Part shown: in pieces, positions 2,914-21,483 of the stretch
Layout of the letters: each line of letters opens with the position of its first letter
How positions within the stretch are numbered: the first letter of the stretch is position 1
DNA from: a virus
Strand: one strand, 5' to 3'
DNA: 30,037 nucleotides
IMG/VR virus record: IMGVR_UViG_3300025120_000331
Coordinates: 1 to 30,037 of that record
Program-made: the position numbers and the translations under genes
Notes under the pieces: generated by a model
What the model saw: only the letters and a program-made list of their open reading frames with translations
What the model was told of the DNA's origin: nothing
Database searches by the model: none

Positions 2914-3322
2914 TTTAGCAACTACAGACCGTTTTGCAATAGCAGAAGTAGGTGGTGGCTCTTTCAATAGTAAGCACGTTACTGGCGAAGAAATTATAAC
3001 TGCTGCTAATTTAGTTACTGCTCGCGCAGTATCTACTACATCACATACATTAGCTTTAGCAGATGCACATAAGTTTATTCAGTTTGATAATGGTAGTGCA
3101 ATAGCTGTGACAGTGCCTACAAATGCATCGGTGGCTTTCTCAACAGGCACACAAATATTATTTAGTCAGCACGGTGCTGGTCAAGTGACGTTTGCAGCTG
3201 CTGGTGGTGTAACTGTTAGGGCTGCTGGAGGTAAATTAAAAACAACGGCACAATATAGTATGGGTAGTTTGATTAAGATAGCTACAGATGAATGGTATAT
3301 AACAGGAGATTTAACAACGTAA
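2870..3322 (+). CDS. Tail fibre / virion surface protein
   Basis: This 150-residue protein starts with the MADIKISALTAKGANLATTD pattern found at the N terminus of many phage fibre proteins. It continues with a Gly/Ala-rich beta module containing FSQHGAGQVTFAAAGGVTV and DEWYITGDLTT. The latter module is common at the end of phage tail-fibre or tip proteins and is probably a trimeric beta structure. It directly precedes two LamG proteins; the three probably make up the host-contact apparatus. The stop overlaps the next ATG (TAATG). The assignment as a fibre part is by pattern and neighbourhood; a capsid decoration role is possible. Confidence 0.65.
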   Translation: MADIKISALTAKGANLATTDRFAIAEVGGGSFNSKHVTGEEIITAANLVTARAVSTTSHTLALADAHKFIQFDNGSAIAVTVPTNASVAFSTGTQILFSQHGAGQVTFAAAGGVTVRAAGGKLKTTAQYSMGSLIKIATDEWYITGDLTT

Positions 3323-4077
3323 TGCAGATAGCAACACACGGAATATTAGCATCAAGTGCAAGTGCAGTAGCAAGTTTCAGTAATGTAAAAAGCTTGGTCT
3401 TTGATGGTGTAGACGATTTTGTAAATATAGCTGATAATGACAATTTATCTTTTGGAGATGGCTCAAACGATTCTGCCTTTTCTATAAGTGCGTGGATTAA
3501 AGCAACAGTTAAGAACTTTATAATAGTTTCTAAAGATGTCAGCGGAGCAGACGAATATTTATTTTATATTAATTCGCTAAATCAACTTTCTTTAGTTCTT
3601 TGCGATAATACAATTTCAAATAGACGCAGTCGCAATAGCGGAAATATTAGTTCAAATTACAATAATTGGATTCACGTTGTGGCTACTTACAATGGTGTTG
3701 GAGGCACAAACGCAGACAATGGAATAAAACTATATTTAAATGCAGTACAAGTTGATTCTGGTACTAATAATGGTGGCTCATATACTGCTATGCACAACGG
3801 AAGCGCACCTGTAACTATAGGCAACTACAATTCTTCTTTATTTGCCAACGGTCACATTGACGAAGTAGCAATATTTAATTCAGAATTAAGCGCAAGTAAT
3901 GTAACAAACATATATAATAGTGGGAACCCAGCCGATTTAACAAGTTTATCACCAATTAGCTGGTATAGAAATGGAGATGGTGACACATTTGCAACTTTGA
4001 ATGATAACGGTAGTGCATCCAACAACGGAACAATGACTAATATGACAAGTGGTGACATAGTAACTGATGTACCATAA
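3322..4077 (+). CDS. LamG / concanavalin A-like receptor-binding protein 1
   Basis: The gene encodes 251 residues. The start chosen is ATG 3322, which overlaps the upstream stop; an upstream in-frame start at 3292 would lie inside the previous gene. The body is one LamG (concanavalin A-like lectin/glucanase) domain: SLVFDGVDDFVNIADNDNLS, then FSISAWIKA, NWIHVVATYNG, IKLYLNAVQVDSG and GHIDEVAIFNSELS. These are the standard strands of the family, which binds glycans or proteins. A tail follows with WYRNGDGDTFATLNDNG and NGTMTNMTSGD. It probably recognises a surface sugar of the host at the tail tip. It is a clear paralogue of the next gene, with less N-terminal sequence. Confidence 0.8.
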   Translation: MQIATHGILASSASAVASFSNVKSLVFDGVDDFVNIADNDNLSFGDGSNDSAFSISAWIKATVKNFIIVSKDVSGADEYLFYINSLNQLSLVLCDNTISNRRSRNSGNISSNYNNWIHVVATYNGVGGTNADNGIKLYLNAVQVDSGTNNGGSYTAMHNGSAPVTIGNYNSSLFANGHIDEVAIFNSELSASNVTNIYNSGNPADLTSLSPISWYRNGDGDTFATLNDNGSASNNGTMTNMTSGDIVTDVP

Positions 4078-4098: not shown

Positions 4099-4950
4099 AT
4101 GGCAGTAACAAACGGATGGGGACAAGCAGCAGTAAATAATACCATTGACTATGGCAAAGGTAAAACTACGGCTACAAACGATTGGGGCAAAATATACGAT
4201 TCAAGCGCAAGTGGTGATACAAGTTTAGGAACGGCAACGACATTTCCAAATACCAAGAGTATATTGCTGGATGGAGTGGATGACTTTGTAGACTGTGGCG
4301 ACAATAACAATTTAAGTTTTGGAGATGGTTCTAATGATTCACCATTTAGCATTTCTTTATGGGTGAAGTTAAGCGGCACAAACTTTATAGAAGCGGCTTT
4401 GTCAAAGTATGGAATATCAAGCAAAAGAGAATATATCGTTTATATAGTCAATCAAAAAGTAAGATTATTAATTATAGATGCATCAGCAACAGCACATAGA
4501 CTTGTAGAAACAAGCAATGCGATTAGCGTTGGTTCTTGGGTAAATATAGTTTGTGTGTATAATGGTGTGGGTGGAAACAATGCTGAGAACGGAATAAAAA
4601 TATATATAAATGGAAGTTTATCAAGTACAACTTCATCAAAAGGTGGTACTTATGTAGCTATGGAAAACACATCGCAGCCATTTCAGATTGGAAGATATTT
4701 TAACGGCGCCCAATATTTTGCAGGAAATATGGACGAGGTTGCGGTATTTAATTCAGAACTTTCTTTAAGTGATGTGACTGCAATTTACAATTCAGGCGTT
4801 CCTGCTTCGCTTTCAAGCTATTCAAGCTTGGTTTCTTGGTGGAGATGCGGGGACAATGATACTTCGCCAACACTTACTGACAATGGTTCGGGAGGCAATA
4901 ACGGAACAATGACAAACTTTACGGCATTTTCAACAGATGTACCAACTTAA
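4099..4950 (+). CDS. LamG / concanavalin A-like receptor-binding protein 2
   Basis: This 283-residue protein has an extra ~45-residue N terminus (NGWGQAAVNN and NDWGKIYDSSASGDTSL) of a kind seen at the start of phage structural proteins in this group, probably the attachment end. A LamG domain paralogous to the preceding gene follows: SILLDGVDDFVDCGDNNNLS, FSISLWVKL, SWVNIVCVYNG, IKIYINGSLS, GNMDEVAVFNSELS. The same tail motif then appears (WWRCGDNDTSPTLTDNG, NGTMTNFTAFSTDVP). Shared patches are visible at DNA level (TTTTGGAGATGG; TATTTAATTCAGAA), but the two are well diverged, so the duplication is not recent. It is likely a tail fibre or tip lectin. Confidence 0.8.
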   Translation: MAVTNGWGQAAVNNTIDYGKGKTTATNDWGKIYDSSASGDTSLGTATTFPNTKSILLDGVDDFVDCGDNNNLSFGDGSNDSPFSISLWVKLSGTNFIEAALSKYGISSKREYIVYIVNQKVRLLIIDASATAHRLVETSNAISVGSWVNIVCVYNGVGGNNAENGIKIYINGSLSSTTSSKGGTYVAMENTSQPFQIGRYFNGAQYFAGNMDEVAVFNSELSLSDVTAIYNSGVPASLSSYSSLVSWWRCGDNDTSPTLTDNGSGGNNGTMTNFTAFSTDVPT

Positions 4951-9323: not shown

Positions 9324-9701
9324 ATGGAAGACTTAATTAGAAAAGTGAAACATCACATACGAAAAGACGGACTAAAATCTAAATGTAGAAAGCCATACTA
9401 TACACATCGAAGAATGTACCTTTTTAATCTTTTAAGAAACGCTGGTGTAACTTATAGCCGTATAGCTGAATTATTTGATTTAAACCACGCTACGATCATT
9501 CACGGTATAAAACGATATGAGAATCTTAAACAAACACGAGACGCGTTCTTATTGCTTGACATAGCCGATTACGATGGCAAGTTTCAACTACATAAACACG
9601 AATACAATTTGAAACGTGATATTTTAAAATCTACTACAATAAGAGATTTAGAAATAATAAAAGGAAGAACAGAAAAAGGGCTATATAAAGAATTAATTTA
9701 A
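9324..9701 (+). CDS. DnaA domain IV-like DNA-binding protein
   Basis: This 125-residue basic protein has a helix-turn-helix near residues 40-65, TYSRIAELFDLNHATIIHGI. It matches the DNA-binding end of DnaA (domain IV), where a signature like DHTTVLHA reads bases in DnaA boxes. No ATPase domain is present, so it cannot act as a full initiator. It may bind origin sequences, compete with host DnaA or regulate transcription. It is the last gene of the first early operon; its stop codon is followed at once by promoter P2. The C-terminal half (80-125) is helical and unassigned. Confidence 0.7.
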   Translation: MEDLIRKVKHHIRKDGLKSKCRKPYYTHRRMYLFNLLRNAGVTYSRIAELFDLNHATIIHGIKRYENLKQTRDAFLLLDIADYDGKFQLHKHEYNLKRDILKSTTIRDLEIIKGRTEKGLYKELI

Positions 9702-9801: not shown

Positions 9802-10068
9802 ATGAACATTTTGAAAAAAGCAAATGAGATTGTAAATAAACGGTCTGAAGAAAAAGAAAGGCAATACGGTGATTTTATTGAGTGCATGACAAAAACAGCG
9901 CGGATAGCGTCTGAATTATCAAATAAAAACATTACAACAAACGATGCTTATAACGTTTTGATTGCACTAAAATTGGCAAGGCAATCGCATTGCCATAAAG
10001 AAGATAATTTATTAGATGCAGTTGCATATCTTGGTTCATTGAATGAATTCTTAAATAAAAAATTATGA
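9802..10068 (+). CDS. DUF6378-like protein
   Basis: The gene encodes 88 residues from ATG 9802; a longer frame with a TTG start at 9778 would reach into the leader hairpin region and is rejected. The pattern R..EKERQYGDF near the start, ITTNDAYNVLIALKLAR in the middle and KEDNLLDAVAYLG near the end fits the DUF6378 family. These small helical phage proteins keep Asp/Asn residues reminiscent of MazG-type metal sites. No biochemical role is established that I can name. It lies in front of the dCMP-type synthase and a MazG-like gene with 4-base overlaps, so a job in nucleotide pools is likely. Confidence 0.65.
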   Translation: MNILKKANEIVNKRSEEKERQYGDFIECMTKTARIASELSNKNITTNDAYNVLIALKLARQSHCHKEDNLLDAVAYLGSLNEFLNKKL

Positions 10069-10823
10069 GCAATATATTTGAAACAGAATACAAACAGCTT
10101 TTAATGCGTTGTTTATTAAAAGGAGAAATTATTGAAAATCGAACGGCTGTAAAAACGCATAGTTTATTTAATCAAAATATAAACATAGATTTAAAATACG
10201 GTTTTCCTATTGTTACTGGTAAAAAAATATTTTTTCAAAAAGCGTTAAGTGAGTTTAAATGGATATATGAAGGCCGCGTTGATTTAGATTATTTAAATAA
10301 AAATAATATTAATTGGTGGAATGATTTTGCAAAAAACGGTAAACTAGGCAAAATATATGGCTATCAAATACGAAAATTTAATGGAGTTTTTGATCAAGTA
10401 AAATACGTAATAAATGAAATTAACAATAATTCAAGAAGAGCTTTAATAACATTATGGAACCCAACTGACCTTAAAGAGCAAGCGTTGCCTTGTTGTTATA
10501 CGCAATTAAACTTTGTACGTATTAATAATAAATTAAATATGTCAATTAATTTTAGATCATCAGATTTGTTTTTAGGCTTGCCTTACGATATAATATTTGC
10601 GGCTTTGTTTTTATATACAATTGCTAACGAATGTAATTTAGTGCCAGCAAATTTAGGTTTAAATATAGCAAATGCGCATATTTATATAAATCACGAAAAA
10701 GCAGTTCAAGAGTATTACAGAAAACCGGTTTATAATTTACCGGAATTAAAAGGAACATACAATAATTATGAATTAAAAAATTATAAATCAGGAGAATTAA
10801 TAAAAGCAAAATTAGTATTATGA
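10065..10823 (+). CDS. Thymidylate synthase homologue, probable dCMP (hydroxy)methyltransferase
   Basis: This 252-residue protein is full length for the ThyA fold. Visible are NRT (phosphate loop, Arg26), TGKKIFFQKALSEF (Glu63), W84-W85, IYGYQ (Tyr99), the nucleophile in LPCC (Cys143), FRSSD (Arg164, Asp167), LGLPYD (170-175) and NAHIY (His205, Tyr207). The residue that selects the base, Asn177 of E. coli ThyA in LGLPFN, is Asp175 here. T4 dCMP hydroxymethylase has Asp at this place, and Asn-to-Asp changes in ThyA move preference to dCMP. The likely product is therefore 5-hydroxymethyl- or 5-methyl-dCMP from methylene-tetrahydrofolate. The PCH motif is PCC. The retained Trp leaves methyl versus hydroxymethyl open. 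It is flanked by DUF6378 and MazG genes with 4-base overlaps. Confidence 0.85.
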   Translation: MSNIFETEYKQLLMRCLLKGEIIENRTAVKTHSLFNQNINIDLKYGFPIVTGKKIFFQKALSEFKWIYEGRVDLDYLNKNNINWWNDFAKNGKLGKIYGYQIRKFNGVFDQVKYVINEINNNSRRALITLWNPTDLKEQALPCCYTQLNFVRINNKLNMSINFRSSDLFLGLPYDIIFAALFLYTIANECNLVPANLGLNIANAHIYINHEKAVQEYYRKPVYNLPELKGTYNNYELKNYKSGELIKAKLVL

Positions 10824-11116
10824 ATAGATTTGAATTAATAAGGCAATGGGCAAACGCTAAAGGGATATATACGAAAGGTGACCCAAAAACACAAACTTTA
10901 AAATTATTAGAAGAATCAGGTGAATTAGCAAAAGCTATTTTAAATAACGACCAAGACGAAGTAATAGACGCTATAGGGGATTGTGTTGTAGTTTTAACAA
11001 GCATAGCGCACATGAGAGGTGTTACTATTGAGCAATGTATTGATGAGGCTTATAATGTAATATCAAAAAGGAAAGGTAAAATGATTAACGGAACATTTGT
11101 AAAAGAAAAAAAATGA
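10820..11116 (+). CDS. MazG-like nucleotide pyrophosphohydrolase
   Basis: This is a 98-residue all-helical protein with the MazG metal site: E31-E32-xx-E35 in LLEESGELAKAI and E47-xx-D50 plus Asp54 in EVIDAIGDCVVVL. Such enzymes split nucleoside triphosphates to monophosphate and pyrophosphate. Directly behind a predicted dCMP-acting synthase, the natural substrate would be dCTP: hydrolysis would supply dCMP and keep plain dCTP out of DNA, as T4 gp56 does. General MazG house-cleaning or alarmone degradation are alternatives. The gene overlaps both neighbours by 4 bases, so translation is coupled. Confidence 0.8.
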   Translation: MNRFELIRQWANAKGIYTKGDPKTQTLKLLEESGELAKAILNNDQDEVIDAIGDCVVVLTSIAHMRGVTIEQCIDEAYNVISKRKGKMINGTFVKEKK

Positions 11117-11529
11117 GAACATATAAAGCAAAAATTAAAATGAAGGATGACTGGAAAATACAAAATACCGGTTTATTAGGAGAAAAAATATTCAATCTTT
11201 GGTTTAATTCAAATTATGAAACTGAAAAATTATTTAAACAATGCGCTGATCGTGATTACGAAGGAATTGATTTTGCAGATGAAAAAGGTTATACGTATCA
11301 AGTTAAAGCGACAAGGGCTCGTAGTTATACGTTTAATTGCTATTTAGATGACCTTAACGAGCATTTAAAAAGTGATATATATGTTTTTATACAAATACAT
11401 GAAAAGTATGCTTATATTGAAAGTTTATATAATAAAAATGAAATACTTAATTTAGCCAGGCAAAGTTTCAAAGAACAAAAATCTTGTTTTGTATACGCTA
11501 AAGACTTATTACAGCAAAAATTATTTTAA
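11113..11529 (+). CDS. PD-(D/E)XK-like nuclease
   Basis: This 138-residue protein carries a core resembling restriction-type nucleases: Glu24 in GLLGEKIF, Asp53 in EGIDF and Gln63-Val-Lys65 in TYQVKAT, spaced as E...D...QxK, a known variant of the PD-(D/E)XK motif. The motif residues are placed on predicted strands after a first helix. The family covers endonucleases that cut or nick DNA. No DNA-recognition domain is seen beyond the core. The gene is coupled to the MazG gene by ATGA. In T4, endonucleases that attack unmodified cytosine DNA work with dCMP hydroxymethylase; a parallel here is attractive but unproven. A resolvase or repair nuclease is also possible. Confidence 0.6.
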
Positions 11530-18661: not shown

Positions 18662-19411
18662 ATGAAGTTAGATTTACTCTTACCGACATCATTAAGCGAA
18701 ATACCATTGTCAAGGTATCAAGAATTTATAAAGACAAAAGAAGCATCAAACGATGATGAATTTATTGCACAAAAGATGATTCAAATATTTTGTGGCATAG
18801 ATTTGAAAGATGTAGGCAAGATAAAAATGAAGCACTTAAACGAACTGATTACACATTTTACAAAAGTGTTTAGTGAAAAGCCTAAACTTATCACTCGCTT
18901 TCATATTGAAAATATTGAGTTTGGCTTCATACCAAAACTTGATGAAATTACATTTGGCGAATACGTAGATTTAGAAAACCACTTGCAAAACTGGGAAACA
19001 TACCATAAAGCTTTAGCAGTTATGTACCGACCAATAAAAGATCAATACAAAGACAAGTATAGTATTGTGGACTACGAACCAAACGAAGATATGCAAGACC
19101 TAATGAAGTTTGCGCCTTTAAATGTAGCAATAAGCAGCTCGGTTTTTTTTTGGATTTTAGGAAGCGAATTAATGAATCTTACAATCAATTATTTACAGAA
19201 AGAACTGAAGACGATGACTTCCAGCAGTATAGCGAAAGACAAAACTTTTCAAGACAATGGGGATGGTATAATTCAATCTATGCACTCGCTAAAGGAGATG
19301 TTACCAGATTTGACGAAGTTACAAGCTACCGACTTACTAAATGTCTCACCTATCTTACATTCGAAAAGCAAAAAAACGAAATCGAAGCAAACGAACTTAA
19401 ACAACAAATGA
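18662..19411 (+). CDS. Tail assembly chaperone, zero-frame product
   Basis: The gene reads 249 residues in one frame. The N-terminal part (to about residue 163) is well ordered: KLDLLLPTSLSEIPLSRYQE, FGFIPKLDEITFGEYVDLEN, ETYHKALAVMYRPIKDQYKD. This pattern is seen in Bacteroidota phage tail-chaperone proteins. At codons 161-163 lies a run of nine T (19143-19151). Past it the zero frame (WILGSELMNLTINYLQKELK ... KSKKTKSKQT) competes with the -1 frame at 19150, which looks more like real protein. So the last 86 residues may be a minor or spurious product. It is the first gene of the tail block, behind motif B. Confidence 0.7.
   Translation: MKLDLLLPTSLSEIPLSRYQEFIKTKEASNDDEFIAQKMIQIFCGIDLKDVGKIKMKHLNELITHFTKVFSEKPKLITRFHIENIEFGFIPKLDEITFGEYVDLENHLQNWETYHKALAVMYRPIKDQYKDKYSIVDYEPNEDMQDLMKFAPLNVAISSSVFFWILGSELMNLTINYLQKELKTMTSSSIAKDKTFQDNGDGIIQSMHSLKEMLPDLTKLQATDLLNVSPILHSKSKKTKSKQTNLNNK
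19143..19151 (+). other. Slippery T run for -1 frameshift (or homopolymer error)
   Basis: In the zero frame it reads GTT TTT TTT TGG. Tandem slippage by one base on T-TTT-TTT enters the frame at 19150 (TTG GAT TTT AGG). Lambda-type tail chaperones G and GT use such a shift. An undercounted T in the assembly would create the same picture. Confidence 0.6.
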
Positions 19412-19419
19412 GAAGATGA
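19150..19419 (+). CDS. Tail assembly chaperone, -1 frame extension
   Basis: This frame adds 89 residues after Phe163 of the preceding gene: a 252-residue fusion if read through by -1 slippage. It holds RQWGWYNSIYALAKGDVTRF and KCLTYLTFEKQKNEIEANEL, a pattern typical of the C-terminal part of tail chaperones, with codon choice like the genome. Its stop overlaps the next gene's ATG as ATGA, as many gene pairs here do, which argues that this frame is translated. There is no independent start codon; the TTG at 19150 is within the slip site. It could also be part of a single longer gene broken by a one-base assembly error. Confidence 0.75.
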   Translation: MDFRKRINESYNQLFTERTEDDDFQQYSERQNFSRQWGWYNSIYALAKGDVTRFDEVTSYRLTKCLTYLTFEKQKNEIEANELKQQMRR

Positions 19420-19868
19420 ATTATTTTGATATTATAGACAAACTAAAAGCACACTTTGACGCAGACGAATTAGTAAACACGGTTACACAAGGCGATATAT
19501 TCGAAGTGGACTTGTCAAAACAAACTATTTTCCCCTTAGTTCACTTGATCGTAAACACGGCAACTTTTGAGGATAACGTAATAAGATACAACATTAGCAT
19601 TTTAGCTATGGATATTGTCGACATAACAAAAGACGAAACCACAAATAAGTTTGAAGGCAACGATAACGAACTATACATAATTAATACACAGTTAGCCGTT
19701 CTTAACAGGTGTTATGAGTTGTTAAGACGTGGCACACTATACACCGATGCGTTTCAAGTAGATGGTAATCCAAGTGCTGAATTTTTTACAGAACGATTTG
19801 AAAATAAGTTAGCTGGTGCAACATTGACCGTAGATATTTTAGTAGGTAATTCAATGACTATTTGCTAA
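19416..19868 (+). CDS. Probable tail terminator / head-tail joining protein
   Basis: This 150-residue protein has NTVTQGDIFEVDLSKQTIFP, VHLIVNTATFEDN, ILAMDIVDITKDE and FFTERFENKLAGATLTVDI. It is a mixed alpha/beta protein of the sort found near HK97 gp10-like genes, where tail terminators and completion proteins lie. Its start overlaps the chaperone -1 frame, and its stop overlaps the next ATG (TAATG). The specific joining role is inferred. Confidence 0.6.
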   Translation: MNYFDIIDKLKAHFDADELVNTVTQGDIFEVDLSKQTIFPLVHLIVNTATFEDNVIRYNISILAMDIVDITKDETTNKFEGNDNELYIINTQLAVLNRCYELLRRGTLYTDAFQVDGNPSAEFFTERFENKLAGATLTVDILVGNSMTIC

Positions 19869-20398
19869 TGGCAGAATTTGAAAACATACAAGATTTATTA
19901 AACGACTTTAGAAGCAACGTGATTCGTGAAGCTAAAAGAAACTTAACAAGCCAAAACACTTCTGGTAGATTAAGCAAAAGTTTAAATAGCGTTGTTAAAG
20001 AATCTAAAAACAGTATTCAGATTAGTTTTGAGATGGAAGATTACGGCTTTTATCAAGATAGAGGGGTACAAGGTACGAAAGGTGGTAAAAGTTTAGATGG
20101 CTACAAATACACGAACAAAATGCCACCACCAAAAGCATTCGATAAGTGGATAGTCAAGAAAGGTTTTAATGATACAATTAGAGATAAGAAAGGTAGATTC
20201 GTAAAGCGAAAAGGTTTAGCTTTTATAATAGCAAGAAGCATATTTGAGAAAGGCATAAAGCCAACACTATTTTTTACAAAACCATTTGAAAAATTTTACA
20301 AGCGACTGCCAGATGAGTTGGTAGAAAAATACGGACTAGATATGGAAAAACTATTTACACAAATAACAGACGAAAACTTTAAAAGACTAAGCAAATGA
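19868..20398 (+). CDS. HK97 gp10-like tail completion protein
   Basis: The gene encodes 176 residues from ATG 19868; an upstream TTG at 19862 is rejected because TAATG coupling is the rule here. Features of the gp10 family: a helical start (LLNDFRSNVIREAKRNL), GRLSKSLNSVVKES, the central YGFYQDRGVQGTKGGKS and a basic C-terminal half with RSIFEKGIKPTLFFTKPFEK. Gp10-like proteins sit at the head-tail interface. The gene overlaps the next by 4 bases. Confidence 0.75.
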   Translation: MAEFENIQDLLNDFRSNVIREAKRNLTSQNTSGRLSKSLNSVVKESKNSIQISFEMEDYGFYQDRGVQGTKGGKSLDGYKYTNKMPPPKAFDKWIVKKGFNDTIRDKKGRFVKRKGLAFIIARSIFEKGIKPTLFFTKPFEKFYKRLPDELVEKYGLDMEKLFTQITDENFKRLSK

Positions 20399-21483
20399 AT
20401 TTAGCACGATCACCGTTTATTGTAGAAATTTCCGAAAGTGGGCAAACAGGTTCTAAAATAGAATTGTTTTTATGGACTACAGGAAGCCAACCAGCATCAC
20501 CACAATACACACTTGAAAAACTTATACCAGCATCTAACAACGTAAAGACGTTCTACAATGTTTCACCGTACGTTCGTGAGTATTTTACAATGGGTGGCTA
20601 TAACTACGACACGGCAAACTTTTTTGACACGGCAACGAGTACAAGCTATCTTGTAAACTATGCAATAAAAAGATACAAAAATGTAAGTGGCACTTATACA
20701 CTTTTAGGAACAGACACAGGTCAATTTGTAAATGGCTATAGTGAATATATGGAAGGGCAAAACACGGTCAAGCAAGATGTTCTATTAGACGAAGGCACAT
20801 ACTTATATCACTACGATAGTTCGTTTAGTACAACGCAAAGAAACGCACTTGCTGGAAGCTTTGATGCTGATTTAGCAGTAGGCGAAAAAATAAAGTACAC
20901 AAATCTAAGAACAGGAGCAACGCAAATTTATACAATAAGTGCAGCTGGTGTAAAAGTATTCGGAAGAATTTATACAGGCAATCTTGCAGACGGTAACAAG
21001 GTAGAAATGATTAACACAAGTGCAGCCGTAGTTTGGACTGCTACATTCAAACCTGTATGTGAGCCAAAGTATAGTCCTATTGTAGTGGACTTTGTAAACA
21101 AGTACGGTAGTTGGTCACGAATGTTCTTTATGAAAGTAAACAAAAGAACAACGGCAGTAAAAAGCAACGAATACAAATTTAATCCACAATCATTGCCGTA
21201 TAGTGCTACGCAAGGTGGTGGTCAAATAAAGCAGTTTAACAAAACAGGAAACGAAAGCATAAAGCTAAATAGTGGCTTTGTAAACGATGGCTACGCAGAA
21301 TACATACAACAACTAATGTTAAGTGAACACGTAACTGTTTTAGATTTTGACACAAACACGAACGCTTTTCCAAGCAAGGTTAAAACTCAATCACTTGTAA
21401 AGCAAACAGGTTTAAACGATGGCACTATGAATTATACACTTGACTTTGATTTTGCTTTTGATCTTATAAACAACGTAACGTAA
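20395..21483 (+). CDS. Tail structural protein
   Basis: This 362-residue protein is rich in Thr, Ser, Asn, Tyr and Gly and probably mainly beta. It starts MNLARSPFIVEISESGQTGS and has PASNNVKTFYNVSPYVREYF and DFVNKYGSWSRMFFMKVNKR. It is of a type seen in tail regions of Bacteroidota phages. It lies between the gp10-like protein and an 800-residue tail protein, upstream of the tape measure. A distal tail or baseplate part is likely; a tail-tube role is less likely. The precise family is not recognised. Confidence 0.65.
   Translation: MNLARSPFIVEISESGQTGSKIELFLWTTGSQPASPQYTLEKLIPASNNVKTFYNVSPYVREYFTMGGYNYDTANFFDTATSTSYLVNYAIKRYKNVSGTYTLLGTDTGQFVNGYSEYMEGQNTVKQDVLLDEGTYLYHYDSSFSTTQRNALAGSFDADLAVGEKIKYTNLRTGATQIYTISAAGVKVFGRIYTGNLADGNKVEMINTSAAVVWTATFKPVCEPKYSPIVVDFVNKYGSWSRMFFMKVNKRTTAVKSNEYKFNPQSLPYSATQGGGQIKQFNKTGNESIKLNSGFVNDGYAEYIQQLMLSEHVTVLDFDTNTNAFPSKVKTQSLVKQTGLNDGTMNYTLDFDFAFDLINNVT

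Follow-up and report, generated by a model that had tools for sequence, protein, structure and literature searches.

Phage-encoded homologues of thymidylate synthase (TS) with aspartate in place of Asn177 of Escherichia coli ThyA (EcThyA) have already been linked in print to cytosine-modified phage DNA (PMC8670742). That MetaGPA study ties the Asn177-to-Asp change to formation of 5-methyl-dCMP; of all TS positions, 177 and 147 show the strongest association there with cytosine-modified phage contigs, on which TS also co-occurs with a PF01503 pyrophosphohydrolase. The dCMP hydroxymethylases, exemplified by T4 gp42, are described in PMC6400193 as having a signature made up of an acidic residue (Asp or Glu) three positions ahead of the Cys, a Ser/Thr-x-Tyr motif (Ser94 and Tyr96) and no C-terminal tail, and the CMP hydroxymethylase MilA/BcmA has Lys and Ala at its ribose-selecting positions (PMC5175136). 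The dCMP methyltransferase of phage Xp12 is judged here from its relatives AXL1, DoCa6 and PaMx74. We describe a further TS homologue, from an uncultured virus (IMG/VR record IMGVR_UViG_3300025120_000331, of which the 30,037 nucleotides analysed are referred to as the window); our searches of the open-access literature found no report of its clade, active-site code or operon.

The gene occupies positions 10065..10823 on the plus strand and encodes a protein of 252 aa, a predicted dCMP C5-methyltransferase that Pfam PF00303 places in the thymidylate-synthase superfamily (204.4 bits, cut-off 24.3). An AF2 model derived from 15 clade sequences (pLDDT 85, pTM 0.86, with low confidence of about 61 at the C-terminal tail) finds thymidylate synthases as its best PDB matches, end to end and including the tail, at Z of about 31 (ThyA 4fog: Z 31.3, 245 residues, rmsd 1.7); T4 gp42 is not among the 50 VIA-align rows for this model, which excludes nothing. 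Alignment of the LPCCYT motif (Leu141 to Thr146, 10485..10502, plus strand) to EcThyA places Leu141 at Leu143, Cys143 at Pro145, Cys144 at the nucleophile Cys146 and Tyr145 at His147, so that the nucleophile is Cys144 and not Cys143, as an earlier sequence-only reading had it. The same reading held that the other catalytic residues are kept, which is true of Arg26, Arg164, Ser165, Asp167, His205 and Tyr207, together with Glu63, Trp85, Tyr98 and Arg124/125, but not of His147 and Trp83, replaced by Tyr145 and Phe88. The tail, IKAKLVL (10800..10820, plus strand), is the counterpart of EcThyA IKAPVAI and is absent in T4 gp42. Leu143, Trp80, the tail and most catalytic residues are common to EcThyA and the window protein, whereas two marks of a thymidylate synthase, Asn177 and His147, are missing. 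Changes near the base and cofactor that run through the whole clade are Pro145 to Cys, Trp83 to Phe, Phe176 to Tyr, and His147 to Tyr or Phe.

The base-selecting position is Asp175, encoded by GAT at 10587..10589 (plus strand) in the context FLGLPYDII of the translated ORF 10065-10823. In MAFFT alignments it shares a column with EcThyA Asn177, T4 gp42 Asp179 and the Asn of SPO1 gp29, which bears out the original identification of an Asp codon at the ThyA Asn position and its placement against both E. coli ThyA and T4 gp42. Six patterns that leave out the Asp site, scanned against viral sequences, recovered 72 loci, two of which (L070 and L072) stop before the codon; all 70 that reach it, at protein identities of 59-100%, have Asp there, so a chance or sequencing variant does not account for it. 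Of 66 distinct clade proteins, 55 use GAT for this residue and 11 use GAC, a silent change only, and no other residue occurs. Part of these 66 come from a second scan (354 viral relatives matched, the best 80 kept) whose pattern contains the Asp and which therefore counts for abundance only; the unbiased count is 70/70.

The residues at EcThyA positions 143, 145, 146, 147 and 177, counted over distinct proteins, distinguish the TS classes. The window clade reads LCCYD in 59 of 66 proteins, LCCFD in six and ICCYD in one; Xp12-like proteins read NPCPD (10/10), gp42-like proteins D[MIV]CTD (55/56, the remaining one being NPCND) and EcThyA-like proteins LPCHN (74/76), and SPO1 gp29, a dUMP hydroxymethylase by annotation, reads DPCNN. 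Among the annotated phages sampled, Asp177 also occurs with other codes in Dickeya phage Amaethon (LCCHD) and Microbacterium phage Stromboli (IPCMD). Position 143 is Asp in both hydroxymethylases and a different residue in the methylases, position 177 is Asp where the base is cytosine and Asn where it is uracil, and together the two give a two-by-two table. To our knowledge, the Leu/Asp corner of this table, filled by the window protein, is otherwise represented by laboratory mutants alone. Those mutants of E. coli ThyA share the Leu/Asp pairing with the window enzyme, which differs in being natural and in having Cys143, Tyr145, Phe88, Tyr174 and others changed as well.

The Xp12 type resembles the window protein in Asp177 (10/10 distinct Xp12-like proteins and the window), the GLPYD motif, the TS fold and an adjacent pyrophosphohydrolase gene of the PRA-PH/MazG type. 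It differs in its N-P-C-P-D code against the window's L-C-C-Y-D, in a longer protein with a different tail, in having dCMP deaminase and dihydrofolate reductase (DHFR) as TS neighbours, and in the fusion of its pyrophosphohydrolase to an Nmad1-type domain; in AXL1 and PaMx74 the gene order is pyrophosphohydrolase, TS, dCMP deaminase, DHFR. Given the different code, the window enzyme may work like that of Xp12 but lies outside its clade, and the Asn at 143 in the Xp12 type indicates that Leu is not required for methylation. A tree of 65 rows, from which columns 143, 145, 147 and 177 had been removed, implies at least four Asn/Asp changes, subject to a long-branch warning, and joins the window and Xp12-like clades weakly (92/69); descent of the window clade from the Xp12 type is not claimed. 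T4 gp42 shares with the window protein the Asp at the base-selecting position and the TS fold, and differs by its Asp145 and Ser94 signature, its lost tail and its D-M-C-T-D code. Among the annotated matches listed, the closest relative, the thyA of AP013540 (Votkovvirus S28C10), has 55% identity and the same L-C-C-Y-D code, but belongs to an Autographivirus in which the neighbours are PRA-PH, a kinase-like protein and dCMP deaminase, and DUF6378 was not found. The cassette of this uncultured Autographivirus (L074) spans 19170-21191 and consists of PRA-PH pyrophosphohydrolase, kinase-like protein, Asp177 TS and dCMP deaminase. The MetaGPA homologues, by their description in the accessible part of PMC8670742, have Asp177, a change at 147 and a co-occurring pyrophosphohydrolase as in the window; DUF6378 is not mentioned with them in that part.

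In the window the TS homologue lies in the middle of a tightly packed trio with an ATGA overlap at both joints. Upstream is the gene of an 87 aa DUF6378 protein (9805..10068, plus strand; PF19905, 47.9 bits, cut-off 27.1), and downstream that of a 98 aa MazG-like all-alpha NTP pyrophosphohydrolase, a candidate dCTPase (10820..11116, plus strand; PF03819, 35.1 bits, cut-off 22; PF01503, 28.7 bits, cut-off 21.3). DUF6378 precedes TS in 69 of the 72 loci, the exceptions being L051, where the contig begins at this point, L053 and L054; MazG follows TS in 69 of 72, being missing from L044, L070 and L072, whose contigs end there or shortly after. Many loci encode a MazG protein extended at its N terminus by about 150 aa. 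The gene that follows MazG in the window (11113-11529) encodes a 138-aa protein shared by the closest relatives of the window (20 of 72 loci), which by eye reads like a PD-(D/E)XK nuclease and has no Pfam match above cut-off.

The predicted fold of DUF6378 consists of five helices, and neither its model nor its profile resembles a solved structure (E 1.8 at best, and 0.89). We rejected the idea that it is a form of Nmad1 (DUF1599), match probabilities to the two contexts of that domain being 1.7% and 0.7%, and take its PHROG name 'phosphofructokinase' to be a misannotation. The lone Nmad1/DUF1599 domain found before some gp42-like genes does match the end of the Xp12-type pyrophosphohydrolase (99% probability); such ends or lone domains lie at 9561-10334 in L078, 41389-42126 in L080 and 2173-2514 in L152.

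Single-pass searches found MazG or PRA-PH within 2.5 kb of TS in 26/26 clade representatives, 6/6 Xp12-like loci and AP013540 (1/1), and in 10/22 gp42-like and 5/50 EcThyA-like Asn177 loci, the last two counts being lower bounds because the queries came from the clade, Xp12-like phages, AP013540, Amaethon and T4 gp56. The counts include rows that match themselves as queries, namely Amaethon, AP013540, two in the Xp12-like set of six and two in the clade; six TS rows with 600-base flanks (0/6) and SPO1, L304, L313 and L314 (0/4) were left out of the comparison. An iterated search (18/22 gp42-like, 9/50 Asn177) drifted and was set aside in favour of the single-pass counts; when ten of its matches were checked against Pfam, three were MazG or PRA-PH, one was DUF1599 and six had no match. 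Two findings weigh against the link: Stromboli has Asp177 but no MazG gene was found within 1.5 kb of it, and none of the clade ORFs had T4 gp56 as its best query, so that a dCTPase role for MazG is not demonstrable by this means.

These observations argue that the TS homologue is quite probably a dCMP methylase. That it acts on dCMP, as first proposed from the sequence, draws support from the invariant Asp, the change at 147, the linked pyrophosphohydrolase and the association published in PMC8670742, and its deoxy-sugar residues, by alignment to EcThyA, are Arg124/Arg125 and Ser165 rather than the Lys and Ala of the ribonucleotide enzyme MilA. The accompanying suggestion of a 5-hydroxymethyl product finds no such support, since every mark of the signature given in PMC6400193 is absent: Leu141 stands for Asp145, Lys96-Ile-Tyr98 for Ser94-x-Tyr96, and the tail is present. 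We therefore dropped hydroxymethylation as the first-choice reading and consider 5-methyl-dCMP, not 5-hydroxymethyl-dCMP, the likely product. An enzyme that hydroxymethylates dCMP as in T4, giving 5-hydroxymethylcytosine in DNA, would share the Asp at 177 with gp42 and could also be expected beside a pyrophosphohydrolase, given the gp42-like loci that have one nearby; it is nevertheless very unlikely, as gp42-like proteins have Asp where the window has Leu141, the tail is kept and Ser94 is missing, even the T4 D145N mutant makes no product (PMC6400193), and the scanned window ORFs yielded neither a glycosyltransferase nor a carbamoyltransferase domain. Equally improbable is that the protein still acts on dUMP as a thymidylate synthase, or has lost activity. 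While it resembles a TS in fold, tail and most of its catalytic residues and its closest solved structures are thymidylate synthases, Asn177 occurs in 79/79 EcThyA-like proteins against Asp in 67/67 clade proteins (the latter partly pattern-selected), and the conservation of the catalytic residues speaks against a dead enzyme.

For the dCMP methylase, we propose that the MazG-like neighbour would hydrolyse dCTP to dCMP, that Asp175 would recognise cytosine and protonate its N3, as described for Asp179 of T4 gp42, and that Cys144 would attack C6 while methylene-tetrahydrofolate supplies the C1 unit. With Leu141, Trp85 and the C-terminal tail all in place, the reaction would be completed by hydride transfer, yielding 5-methyl-dCMP and dihydrofolate, and host kinases would convert 5-methyl-dCMP to 5-methyl-dCTP, which would go wholly or partly into the phage DNA. 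Against the proposal, the scanned ORFs of the window include no recognised deoxynucleotide kinase. Taken as a whole, a dCMP-specific C5-methyltransferase of TS fold that is supplied with dCMP by MazG, and whose product goes to phage DNA in whole or part, is a likely explanation of the locus.

Whether the product mainly ends as 5-methylcytosine in virion DNA is less clear, and we regard this as slightly short of an even prospect. Of 218 Type II enzymes, 196 fail on the fully methylated DNA of Xp12 (PMC7653180); were every cytosine methylated, avoidance of C-containing palindromes should therefore relax. We compared observed with expected C-containing 4-mer palindromes using second-order Markov simulations, 25 per record. 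The window has a ratio of 0.68, and six related records have 0.62, 0.69, 0.64, 0.70, 0.98 and 0.75. Avoidance is as strong in four Flavobacteriia phages that lack an annotated TS (0.82, 0.68, 0.63 and 0.79), whereas the ratio is 1.04 and 1.01 for a pair of Xp12 relatives, 0.99 for AP013540 and 0.81 for 50 kb of T4. For 25 clade contigs of at least 9 kb the median is 0.75 (0.51-1.02), and for 13 control chunks 0.71 (0.58-0.88); clade record G006, without 4-mer avoidance, and contigs L006 (1.01) and L049 (1.02) are exceptions. A version of the test with expectations from a formula gives the same picture, and in either version hosts, restriction systems and G+C differ between the groups and the Flavobacteriia controls are four genomes. 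There is thus no sign, in the window or the clade, of the relaxed avoidance of C-containing restriction sites seen in the Xp12 relatives. This speaks, indirectly, against complete protective replacement of cytosine; it is, again indirectly, compatible with partial methylation or with enzymes blind to 5-methylcytosine. Each related record (L316-L327 and the window) avoids its own set of 4-mer palindromes, GATC and CCGG being at 0.00 in G001 and CATG at 0.00 in G002 and G005, a pattern suggestive of host restriction that differs from record to record.

The undiminished avoidance leaves as a serious competitor, and the main rival, a route in which dCMP is methylated but a host deaminase turns 5-methyl-dCMP into dTMP, providing thymidylate from dCTP without dUMP. 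It would account for avoidance of C-containing sites with no sign of protected DNA, a dCMP deaminase gene stands beside TS in AP013540 and the Xp12 relatives, and there is a precedent for Xp12, to go by the title of a paper. Even so we think it unlikely, since no dCMP deaminase (PF00383) was found in the window and ten related records searched (0/11; some records may be incomplete), and an ordinary Asn177 TS with a host dCMP deaminase would do the same job, which leaves the strict Asp unexplained. DHFR is likewise absent from these records (0/11).

The sequence-only reading had expected such an enzyme to be unusual for a 30-kb Bacteroidota siphophage. This holds for annotated phages, 3643 records of which match: among the matches listed AP013540 alone exceeds 40%, and no other is above 37.4%. 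The enzyme is nevertheless typical of a clade of uncultured phages of similar size. The host is probably a member of the Flavobacteriia, an inference to which several proteins are relevant: the terminase shares 56% identity with its counterpart in Flavobacterium psychrophilum phages, and the candidate capsid protein has matches in Nonlabens phages P12024S and L alone (34%), of which P12024S is of similar size and has an ERF protein like the window's and a DNA methyltransferase, with no annotated TS. A long tail is likewise presumed. Adjacent similar proteins at window positions 3292-4077 and 4099-4950 read by eye like tandem tail proteins of the LamG/concanavalin type, and the product of 9324-9701 has a weak match to the DnaA C-terminal helix-turn-helix (26.7 bits, below the cut-off of 31.5). 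A search of bacterial and archaeal genomes for host or prophage copies gave nine candidate stretches and no relative.

We suggest, tentatively and as a somewhat unlikely reading in its entirety, that these proteins form a natural Leu/Asp class of dCMP methylases of compact Flavobacteria phages, acting with MazG and DUF6378, whose product is not a restriction shield but a dUMP-free source of dTMP or a partial or signalling methylation, the genome staying exposed to host restriction. If the dCMP methylase is real, the classic Asn177-to-Asp TS mutants would have a natural counterpart with a distinct active-site code, encoded in a minimal three-gene cassette within a compact phage genome of about 30 kb, and DUF6378, a domain of unknown function, would be tied to the predicted dCMP methylation chemistry. 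Because the active site is that expected of a dCMP methylase while restriction sites are avoided as strongly as in phages without the gene, what the product is for can be tested directly.
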